39,461 nt of DNA from a virus: positions 1 through 39,461 of the IMG/VR virus record IMGVR_UViG_3300050019_000127; one strand, given 5' to 3'. The stretch's first letter is position 1. Every line of letters begins with the position of its first letter. A program made the position numbers and the translations under genes. This document shows, one piece after another, positions 19,868 to 25,110 of this stretch. The notes beneath the pieces are model-generated. The model had not been told where the DNA came from and did not search any database. It saw only the letters and a list, made by a program, of their open reading frames with translations.

Positions 19868-20424
19868 ATCGTCGTTCCTCGCGAGATTCCAAACACAAAT
19901 CCAATCGCCTCATCGATCTGCTCGTACATCTGCTCAACCGTTCCAGAGTTCATCAACAGTCGGTCGGCCGCAATTTCTGCACCTTCGCGCTCACTGCGAT
20001 GGCCGCTGTGTTCGGTTGTTTCTGCGCCGGGACGAAGAATCCGCCAGACTTCTCCGCCCATTCGATTAATGAGATCGGATTCGGTTTTGAATCGAACGTC
20101 GGTAATCACCACGTCATCGCCGGCCTGCGTGGCCAGCGCGATCCGCTGGGCCATGTGTTTCGTCCAGATGCTGGGGTCGATTAGGTCTCGCCCCCATTCG
20201 CTGCCGAGCAGCTGCATCAGCTGGCGTGGGCTCTTGCCCACCCAGGCGATGATCTTCTCTTTGTGTTCTGGTCTGAAGTCTCGGTCAGCAAGGTCAAGCA
20301 TGGCCTTCAGTCCGTCACGAATCGGGTCGGCGAAGGCAAAGACAGCGAAGTTGTGCGCCTTGGATAGATAGAATCCAGCGGTATCTTTCCCGGCAAATGC
20401 AGCGCCAGTGAGGCCAATAATCAT
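19864..20424 (-). CDS. Deoxynucleoside monophosphate kinase
   Basis: A 186-residue protein with an N-terminal P-loop, IIGLTGAAFAGKDTAG, in the form used by T4-type dNMP kinases (GKDT rather than GKST). Later segments DVVITDVRFKTESDLI and the end fit the fold. It would phosphorylate dNMPs to dNDPs for phage DNA synthesis. It starts in an ATGA overlap with the RT gene and is coupled to the next gene. Placed directly after a DGR reverse transcriptase, it might also supply dNTPs for cDNA synthesis, but that is speculation. Confidence 0.82.
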   Translation of the reverse strand: MIIGLTGAAFAGKDTAGFYLSKAHNFAVFAFADPIRDGLKAMLDLADRDFRPEHKEKIIAWVGKSPRQLMQLLGSEWGRDLIDPSIWTKHMAQRIALATQAGDDVVITDVRFKTESDLINRMGGEVWRILRPGAETTEHSGHRSEREGAEIAADRLLMNSGTVEQMYEQIDEAIGFVFGISRGTTI

Positions 20425-21809
20425 GTGTGTCTCCGGTAAGTTTTAGTCAGATCGGCCTTGATGCTGTGGCCGCGATAACGCAGGATGTTGGCCAGTTGCG
20501 CCCGGTCGTGATGGCTGTGGCCTGATTGTCGAAACAATCCGAAATAGCTATTGGCTGTCTCGAAAAGTTTGTCGCCCTCTATTGAGCGAACACGGCTCAG
20601 GGCATCATTGAAGGTGCGTCGACGTGTCGTTCGGCGCCATGGCTTAATCACCTGCCCAATGAAGTCGACGCCGCGATCTACGGGCTGCAGGATGGTCTTC
20701 TTGGCGTTGAGTCGCGCATTCAGGCGTGCCGGAAGAAAGTCCTCGATCTCGGCGTGTGCGGTGTTGAGCCACTGGGGCGATTCGTGCAATAGGATGAAGT
20801 CATCGACGTAGCGCACGTAATGCTTGGCGCCGATCCGGTGCTTAATGAACTGGTCCAGTGCATCAAGGTAGACGTTGGCAAAGAACTGGCTGGAAAGATT
20901 GCCAATGGGAAGTCCGCGATTGGCCGGGTGGTTGGTCAGTCGTTTATGGGCCGGTACCAGATCCAGCTTGGCCGGATCGCCGCGTAACTCGTAGTTCTGG
21001 CGCGGATCGTGAAACAGAATGGTTTCAGTCAGCCACAGCCACCAGGGTTCAATGATGTGTGTAGCCAGTTGCTCATGCAGGATGTTTTTATCGATGCTGA
21101 CGAAGAAGTTAGCCAGATCGAGTTTCAGGTAATGCGCTGGCCGACTCCAGTTCTGCGTGACGCTACGGATCTTCGCCTCCAGGCGCTCGGCCGCATAGAG
21201 CGTTCCGCGCCCCGGGATGCAGGCGCAGGAATCCACAATGAAGCGCCGGTAGAACATGGGCGAGACGCGGTTGTAGAGCAAATGGTGCACGATGCGATCA
21301 CGGAAATCTGCCGCCCATACCTCGCGCGGTTTTGGCCGGGTGATGGCAAAGCAGATCGAGCATCCGGGTGTATAGGTGCTGTCCCGCAGCTCGTCGGCCA
21401 GGATGCTTAGGTTGTGCTCCAGATCCTGCTCGAAGGCCAAAGCGCTGGCGCTGTTGCGCTTGGACTGGCGGCAATCGAAGTAGGCCTGGACAAGTTCTAC
21501 AAAAGAAAAATCAGCCGGGTGGCGTTGTGTTCGATCTGCGGACAGCCCGGGCGCGCAACTCGTTGTTGACGTTGTTGTTGTTCTGGTTGCCGTTGTTGAA
21601 GTTCTGATACCAGGCGTAACCGGCGTCGGACTCGTGCTGTTTCCTGTTGTGCTATCGATGTCGCCCTGCCGAATCATCAGCGGGGAAACTGCGCCAGACC
21701 GATCCTGGCTACTGCCAGTGGTATCCGTGGTGCGCATGTCGGTGGCCTTGTGGGCCAGCGGCTCAACCAGATTGAAAATTCGTACAGTCATGGGGGTCGT
21801 AACCTTCAT
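20421..21809 (-). CDS. DGR reverse transcriptase
   Basis: The RT of a diversity-generating retroelement. From the ATG at 21809 it is 462 residues. The catalytic YVDD is at 334-337 (RYVDDFIL), and the DGR hallmark IGNLSSQ is at 302-308, where other RTs have QGxxxSP. LKLDLANFFVSID carries the first catalytic Asp. The segment FRDRIVHHLLYN near 169-180 is also typical. The core domain starts only near residue 100; the first 100 residues cover the spacer and the template repeat read in another frame. I prefer 21809 because that ATG overlaps the original avd stop (ATGA). No start codon lies between the end of the template repeat and the RT core, so translation must begin upstream and pass through it. 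It ends coupled to the dNMP kinase gene. Confidence 0.93.
   Translation of the reverse strand: MKVTTPMTVRIFNLVEPLAHKATDMRTTDTTGSSQDRSGAVSPLMIRQGDIDSTTGNSTSPTPVTPGIRTSTTATRTTTTSTTSCAPGLSADRTQRHPADFSFVELVQAYFDCRQSKRNSASALAFEQDLEHNLSILADELRDSTYTPGCSICFAITRPKPREVWAADFRDRIVHHLLYNRVSPMFYRRFIVDSCACIPGRGTLYAAERLEAKIRSVTQNWSRPAHYLKLDLANFFVSIDKNILHEQLATHIIEPWWLWLTETILFHDPRQNYELRGDPAKLDLVPAHKRLTNHPANRGLPIGNLSSQFFANVYLDALDQFIKHRIGAKHYVRYVDDFILLHESPQWLNTAHAEIEDFLPARLNARLNAKKTILQPVDRGVDFIGQVIKPWRRTTRRRTFNDALSRVRSIEGDKLFETANSYFGLFRQSGHSHHDRAQLANILRYRGHSIKADLTKTYRRHT
21535..21641 (-). repeat. DGR template repeat (TR)
   Basis: This 107-base repeat, read on the minus strand, contains ten AAC codons in the frame used by the targets. 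It matches three variable repeats, differing only at template adenines. Its 3' part in coding sense is a constant GC-rich stretch (GTTGCGCGCCCGGG), as expected for the mutagenic homology initiation region. It lies just upstream of the RT core, in the usual avd-TR-RT order, and within the RT reading frame. Confidence 0.95.
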
Positions 21810-22159
21810 GAAGCGGACGATGCGGCGGAACGACGCCATCCACTGGCCTGCTTGCCAATGCTGGTGGTCAATTCGATTGCCTTGGCGTACTGGCCAATCG
21901 AGATCAACTGCTTGTCACGCGATCATCGAATGAGCAGCTCTGTAACTTGAAGCCGCTCAATCAGATCGTCGATGTGAGGCGCTTTCACGCGGGAAACATT
22001 GGCGCGAAAGATGAGCACCATGATCTCAACGCACTCATCACGGAGTTTCCCGCCGATCGATGACTTGAAGTCACGATTCATGTTCTTGACGAGATCCGTG
22101 ATGGCGTTGAGAAGGTCATAAGCAACCTTGTAAATCGGCAATTGGGTGTGGAGTGCCAT
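21806..22159 (-). pseudogene. avd: DGR accessory protein Avd, interrupted by an in-frame UGA
   Basis: The first 78 residues (ALHTQLPIYKVAYDLLNAI and on to TELLIR) fit the Avd four-helix bundle, which binds the RT and RNA template. TGA at 21923-21925 then stops the frame, but the same frame continues SRDKQLISIGQYAKAIELT and IGKQASGW, the typical last helix, to a TGA at 21806-21808. The full length would be about 117 residues, as usual for the family. One base change, for example Leu TTA to TGA, would explain it. The original stop overlaps the RT start (ATGA), so the lesion may also lower RT translation. No clear ribosome-binding site precedes the ATG at 22159. It may be a sequencing error or a real knock-out; stop readthrough is a third option. 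Confidence 0.85.
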
Positions 22160-22188: not shown

Positions 22189-22644
22189 CTAAATGGCTAC
22201 TCTGCGGACAGCCCGGGCGCGCAACTCGTTGAGGACGTGGTCGTAGATCTGGTCGCCGCTGATGAAGTGCTGAAACCAGGCGTAACCGGCGTCGGACTCG
22301 TGCTGTTCACAAGACCAGTAGTAGCGCTCTTCGAACTGTTCTTTGAGGTTTGCGAACAGCAGGGATTGTTCACGGCGTGTTGGCAGTTCGCCGCCGAGTA
22401 GTTTTGCCCAGTCCTTGGCGGCTTGCCACGCCATATCGGCGGTTGGAATTCCTGCCATCAGGATCAGGTGATAACTGGCCTCGCCGTCCTTTCCGACGAT
22501 TAGGCCGGCGTAGTGCTCGCCAGGCCGCATGGTGATCAGCGTTTCAGGGAAGTGGAATTCCGGTATTTGTTCCTCAAATTGAGCGATCAGTGCGGCCAGC
22601 TTGCTTTGCTCGGCCTTGATAGATTCGAGAGTGATGGTGATCAT
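22189..22644 (-). CDS. DGR target protein 1 (DUF1566-like, C-type-lectin-type variable end)
   Basis: A 151-residue protein with AGAGG before its ATG. The first 35 residues form an extra helix (SIKAEQSKLAALIAQFEEQI) missing in the other targets. The DUF1566-like core has GEHYAGLIVGKDGEASYHLI and GGELPTRREQSLLF. The YYWSCEQHESDAGYAW segment leads into the variable repeat, and the constant end is NELRARAVRRVAI. Relative to the template, the Asn codons have become I, S, D, Y, H and L. No signal peptide is seen, so it is likely cytoplasmic. It lies just upstream of avd. Confidence 0.88.
   Translation of the reverse strand: MITITLESIKAEQSKLAALIAQFEEQIPEFHFPETLITMRPGEHYAGLIVGKDGEASYHLILMAGIPTADMAWQAAKDWAKLLGGELPTRREQSLLFANLKEQFEERYYWSCEQHESDAGYAWFQHFISGDQIYDHVLNELRARAVRRVAI
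22201..22307 (-). repeat. DGR variable repeat VR1
   Basis: Aligned with the template repeat without gaps it has 11 differences, all at positions where the template coding strand has A. It covers the last third of target 1 up to the final four codons. Confidence 0.94.
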
Positions 22645-22677: not shown

Positions 22678-23046
22678 CTAAATGGGCAATCTGCGGACAG
22701 CCCGGGCGCGCAACTCGAGGTTGACGGTGAGGTTGTCCTGGTAGCCGTTGTCGAAGTCCTGACACCAGGCGTAACCGGCGTCGGACTCGTGCTGTTCGCC
22801 GCTCCAGTACCAGTCTTTCTTGAATTCATCCCGGTGCTTGGCCCACAATAGGGATTGCTCTACTCGGGTCGGAAGCTCGCCGCCGATGGACTTAGCCCAT
22901 TCGGTTTGTTTCTCCCAGGAGGCATCATCGCTGTCGCCAGGGAGAAGGATGATGTGGTGGCCTTGCTGGCTCTCCGCGTCGAACAGAGTGGCGATGTAGA
23001 TTTCGCCGGCAGCAAGGTTAGGTAGTGTGATAGATGGTTTTTCCAT
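22678..23046 (-). CDS. DGR target protein 2 (DUF1566-like)
   Basis: A 122-residue protein with GGGAG before the ATG. It begins EKPSITLPNLAAGEIYIATL and has HHIILLPGDSDDASWEKQ and GGELPTRVEQSLLWAKH, typical of DUF1566-like phage proteins with a C-type lectin type end. WYWSGEQHESDAGYAW leads into VR2. The variable residues are D, Y, D, L, T and L where the template encodes Asn. It is the only target besides target 1 with an intact frame. Confidence 0.88.
   Translation of the reverse strand: MEKPSITLPNLAAGEIYIATLFDAESQQGHHIILLPGDSDDASWEKQTEWAKSIGGELPTRVEQSLLWAKHRDEFKKDWYWSGEQHESDAGYAWCQDFDNGYQDNLTVNLELRARAVRRLPI
22690..22796 (-). repeat. DGR variable repeat VR2
   Basis: Ten differences from the template repeat over 107 bases, without gaps, all at template adenines. 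Homology to VR3, but not to the template, continues upstream (TACTGGAGCGGCGA), reflecting the shared target gene family. Confidence 0.94.
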
Positions 23047-24755: not shown

Positions 24756-25110
24756 CTAAATAACTAATCTGCGGACAGCCCGGGCGCGCAACTCGTAGCC
24801 GACGTCGTAGCCGTACTGGAAGCCGTTGAAGAAGTCCTGACACCAGGCGGAACCGGCGTCGGACTCGTGCTGGTCGCCGCTCCAGTACCCTCTTGCCTTG
24901 AATTCTTCCTTGGCTGTCGCGAACAAGATCGCCTGTTCGACTCGGCTGGGAAGGTGGCCTCCGATGCTTTCAGCCCCAGGCCTTGGAGTCTTCCCAGTTC
25001 ATTGATTCGGCTTCACCGGGCAGTAAAATGATGTGCGTCAGTTGCCCTTTGGCATCTACGGTGGCGCCGATGTAGCGCTCGCCTTCGTTCAGTTCTGGAA
25101 TTGAAAGCAT
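24756..25110 (-). pseudogene. DGR target 3 (DUF1566-like), one-base frameshift
   Basis: From the ATG at 25110, preceded by AGGAG, the frame reads LSIPELNEGERYIGATVDAK and later NWEDSKAWG, then hits TGA. Removing one base from the C4 run at 24974-24977 restores AWAESIGGHLPSRVEQAI and YWSGDQHESDAGSAW, leading to VR3 and an ELRARAVRRLVI end. The repaired protein has 117 residues and is closest to target 2. The lesion is one extra base in a homopolymer, so either a real frameshift or a sequencing error is possible. Its repeat carries the most substitutions, so it was once an active target. Confidence 0.88.
24768..24874 (-). repeat. DGR variable repeat VR3
   Basis: Sixteen differences from the template repeat over 107 bases, without gaps, all at template adenines. 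Two lie outside the central Asn block (in the Tyr and Gln-Asn-adjacent parts), showing that mutagenesis spans the whole repeat upstream of the constant end. Confidence 0.94.

Follow-up and report, generated by a model that had tools for sequence, protein, structure and literature searches.

The DGR of the Bordetella phage BPP-1 (avd-TR-brt) consists of a target gene with a variable repeat (VR), avd, a template repeat (TR) and a reverse transcriptase (RT) gene in that order, and the changes in its VR are confined to adenines. Its Avd is a four-helix bundle (4DWL), and in a reconstituted BPP-1 DGR three avd nonsense mutations lower repair to about 10^-9 (PMC12875486). Broken DGRs are also on record: Schillinger et al. 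2012 described RT genes interrupted by nonsense mutation, frameshift or insertion, among them that of Ruminococcus gnavus ATCC 29149 with its premature stop, in elements whose VR/TR pairs still showed only A changes, and they read these cases as very recent loss or sequencing error (PMC3521204). The closest named phage to the one described here, among those we found, is Burkholderia phage Magia (NC_070954; 67.5% identical in nucleotide sequence across 88% of the query), whose DGR has the gene order target–target–avd–RT and an intact avd of 118 codons.

Here we describe a phage DGR that shares its gene order and A-only VR changes with BPP-1, and its target–target–avd–RT order with Magia, but differs from BPP-1 in having three VR target genes, a TR inside the RT frame and a premature UGA in avd, the gene that is intact in Magia. 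It is a case of the same kind as the inactivated DGRs of 2012, in that a gene of the element is disrupted by a nonsense or frameshift mutation and the VR/TR pairs still show only A changes; in those elements, however, the damaged gene was the RT, and here it is the accessory gene avd, with the RT intact.

A probably recently active cassette in a phage genome

The window, by which we mean the whole stretch of DNA analysed, is the 39,461-base virus record IMGVR_UViG_3300050019_000127. It carries head, portal, terminase, tail, primase, repressor and integrase genes and therefore belongs to a temperate tailed phage. Most of its larger genes match PHROG families across much of their length. The nearest relative found has about 81% nucleotide identity to the window, and no conspecific genome was returned by searches from which records very near the window were possibly left out. 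Two phage records with similar matches to the window DGR, OK094664.1 (Shewanella) and OP650936.1 (‘Hujiaoplasma’), have the same length of 47,902; the Tenericutes host name of the latter may be wrong.

The DGR cassette lies on the minus strand, as do all features of the window given below, between 25110 and 20421, with the target genes carrying VR3, VR2 and VR1 followed by avd, TR and RT. The RT gene (20421–21791) begins at a conserved ATG at 21791 and matches RVT_1 (4.1e-18) and PHROG 1423 (3.5e-116). Its translation contains IGNLSSQ and YVDD, corresponding to the (I/V/L)GxxxSQ motif of DGR-type RTs and the catalytic YxDD box. An upstream RT start with an open frame is common to many relatives. 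The TR (21535–21641; 107 nt, 33 adenines) sits inside the RT reading frame, in a frame that differs from that of the VR proteins; an overlap of the TR with the end of the RT frame is already on record for other DGRs (PMC3521204).

DGR target genes carry their VR at the 3′ end and usually encode a C-type lectin fold. In the window, each VR is located at the end of a target open reading frame. Target gene 1 (22189–22644, 151 aa) ends in VR1 (22201–22307) and target gene 2 (22678–23046, 122 aa) in VR2 (22690–22796); both genes are intact and have weak Lcl_C matches, below the curated cut-off, and the Magia counterpart of a target gene is annotated as a lectin fold. Target gene 3 (24756–25110), which ends in VR3 (24768–24874), carries a surplus base in the stretch of four G at 24974–24977, which shifts VR3 out of frame, and its counterparts read on without the shift.

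All three repeats, including the out-of-frame VR3, are clean A-only copies of the TR. VR1 differs from it at 11 positions, VR2 at 10 and VR3 at 16; all 37 mismatches fall at template adenines, and none was found among the 222 other positions compared. Such A-only mismatches are the signature of mutagenic retrohoming and, because they account for every TR/VR difference, they point to recent activity of the cassette. As a clock, however, the pattern is weak. Clean VRs make up 373 of the 440 in the clade (an upper figure, because the scan trims mismatched ends), so clean pairs are usual there and date the loss only loosely. A DGR of the same clade with a frameshifted avd of 94 aa (L053:3372–3711) also still has two clean A-only VRs, together with an RT that matches along its full length.

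A premature UGA not shared by the relatives compared

The avd frame runs from 22159 to 21806. It encodes 78 residues, reaches a TGA at 21925–21923, and then continues in the same frame for 38 codons (codons 80–117, mostly helix 4; 21806–21922) to a natural TGA stop at 21808–21806. A sequence-only reading, which gave no strand, had proposed an in-frame UGA after residue 78 and a typical last helix beyond it; the minus-strand translation bears out the first point, and the family-typical sequence of the tail and a helix predicted by AlphaFold at residues 88–116 agree with the second. The identity of the gene is clear from the 5′ part (21923–22159), the 78-aa piece of which matches PHROG 3206 (‘Avd protein of DGR’, E=1.1e-17), from the adjoining DGR RT, and from 80 IMG/VR relatives retrieved via the RT gene. 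The same piece (21926–22159), recognized as Avd by PHROG 3206, scored 18.9 bits against Pfam bAvd, for which the cut-off is 40. PF05635 had no match in the window and none in the control genomes either, which makes that search uninformative.

In tblastn, the alignment to the 80 relatives crosses the UGA at 33–91% identity, in one piece except for the frameshifted L053. All 80 have a sense codon at the site (CTN in 60, TTG in 7, ATC in 5 and GTN in 8; that is, 67 Leu, 8 Val and 5 Ile). A natural stop at this place in relatives had been named in advance as grounds for abandoning the idea of a broken gene, and the comparison therefore leaves that idea standing. When the comparison was widened to 237 loci with 173 distinct avd sequences, almost every frame spanned 113–138 codons, compared with the 78 residues read here by the standard code, and only three other loci lacked a full-length avd: L053 (frameshift), L233 (a remnant with no RT) and L237 (contig end). 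No other contig was found when the UGA site was scanned for as an exact pattern that allowed any codon at the stop. Given the sense codons in relatives and the near-universal full-length frames, the premature stop is, within the collections searched, private to this record.

One of these loci bears on whether a natural class of short Avd, ending at about residue 80, might exist. L233 has an Avd-like open reading frame of 82 residues, but its similarity is lost from about residue 57, and it has neither a TR nor an RT match that passes the threshold applied; in the window, moreover, the part that such a class would lack still follows the stop in frame. We consider a short class scarcely credible and reject it, taking L233 to be a remnant and not a functional short Avd. 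The locus itself (L233:4950–5250, Advenella kashmirensis) is a DGR remnant in which a VR-like end is followed by an avd fragment.

The natural avd stop is placed as in the nearest relatives, and the identical string GCTTCATGAAGGTTA occurs in L005 and L006. This stop had been thought to overlap the RT start. It does overlap an ATG at 21809, but that codon is less conserved, and the conserved RT start at 21791 lies 15 nt past the stop. In relatives avd ends at or beside the conserved RT start, whereas in the window translation would end 132 nt before it.

The part of Avd removed by the stop

An AlphaFold model of the read-through sequence (mean pLDDT 91.8) has four helices, at residues 8–25, 29–55, 60–82 and 88–116. 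A fold search with this model matched the chains of Bordetella phage Avd (4DWL; TM 0.78–0.90), as expected of a four-helix bundle in the read-through form, as well as the DGR ribonucleoprotein chains 8UBE, 8UBB, 8UB7 and 8UB8. Over the structural alignment, window Avd and BPP-1 Avd share only about 11–12% identity, and PDB sequences searched with a profile from the Avd alignment yielded no Avd (best E 0.49, at the level of chance). A literature search on pentameric Avd found no paper.

According to the model, the UGA takes away the last residues of helix 3 and the whole of helix 4. The segment past the stop also holds the invariant or near-invariant residues D82, I86, Y91, A92, T98, G102-K103-Q104-A105, G107 and W108. 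The need for Avd was demonstrated in BPP-1, and the low identity between its Avd and that of the window counts against carrying the result over directly. Because helix 4 and these conserved residues are lost, and because avd nonsense mutations cut activity to about 10^-9 in the reconstituted BPP-1 system, we infer that Avd function and homing have probably been lost in the window DGR.

Our preferred reading, to which we assign a probability of roughly 0.68, is that a canonical Avd-type DGR of a temperate tailed phage has suffered a recent nonsense mutation in avd with loss of function. Translation would halt after codon 78 and yield a protein lacking helix 4 and the end of helix 3. This fragment would be unlikely to build the oligomer in which Avd acts with the reverse transcriptase; mutagenic retrohoming would therefore most likely be off in this genome and its three VRs frozen at their last versions. 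RT translation may also be lower, given that the usual position of the avd stop is right beside the RT start and the stop here comes 132 nt before that start. A broken Avd, and hence a probably inactive element, was one of three options offered by the sequence-only reading and is the best supported of them.

Age of the lesion and competing readings

That reading had also held that one substitution explains the stop, a claim that the codons of the relatives do not support. None of the codons seen at the site (CTN, TTG, ATC, GTG and GTC) is one change from TGA; all are at least two changes away, and ATC, the codon of the sister pair of the window (L005 and L006; tree support 100/100), is three. 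A single last step to TGA would be possible through a previous TTA codon, which accounts for 2.4% of Leu codons in this phage.

We dated the lesion by pairwise dN/dS and the present-day alignment. Compared with L006, the post-stop segment has a dN of 0.048 and a dS of 0.203, and the pre-stop segment has values of 0.062 and 0.577. The low dN relative to dS after the stop suggests that the tail was constrained over the greater part of the period since the divergence from L006. By eye, every residue of the window tail is also present in L005, L006 or the family majority. Such conservation is what a young stop, or continued use of the tail, would lead one to expect, and it fits a contig error as well.

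Error in sequencing or assembly is the strongest competitor to a recent loss of avd, although we judge it distinctly the less probable. The UGA, and perhaps also the additional G in target gene 3, would then be artefacts, and avd would be intact in the phage. The window is a virus contig known here from assembled sequence alone, it has a second lesion in the same cassette in the form of an extra base in a G run, and the segment past the stop is under normal constraint; Schillinger et al. 2012 voiced the same caution about their broken RT genes (PMC3521204). Against this, TGA is at least two bases from the codons of all 80 relatives and three from that of the sister pair, such that a single base-call error fits only if the true codon is TTA. 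Moreover, the other main genes of the window are single open frames, with no lesion in those examined. The occurrence of both lesions in one cassette could reflect cassette decay, a relaxed need for the third target gene or local contig errors.

We regard as very unlikely that the cassette is still active, either by some degree of readthrough at the UGA or through cooperation of the 78-residue piece with a separately started helix-4 piece. The conserved tail and the three clean A-only VRs would suit such activity, and an in-frame TTG at 21907 would start a 33-residue piece covering helix 4. By eye, however, no good ribosome-binding site is evident before this TTG, a remote candidate start for such a peptide, and no relative examined has such a split or a UGA at this place. 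Readthrough, another of the options raised at the outset, gained no positive support: recoding of UGA is unlikely in this phage because TGA is an ordinary terminator, ending 18 of the 36 main genes, and no tRNA gene, and thus no suppressor, was found in the window, and the relatives encode Leu, Ile or Val at the site. A recent lesion is the simpler account of the same facts. We think it similarly improbable that this DGR works with a truncated or two-piece Avd (helices 1–3 plus a separately started helix 4) or that phages turn off Avd as a way of fixing a favourable version of the diversified protein.

One broken gene in one virus contig leaves the general picture of DGRs unchanged. If the lesion is real, the window would hold a DGR that is naturally avd-null, with its RT intact and its three VRs diversified not long ago. 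Such an element could help to show whether systems other than that of the Bordetella phage also require Avd, and at what rate VR/TR pairs decay once Avd is gone.
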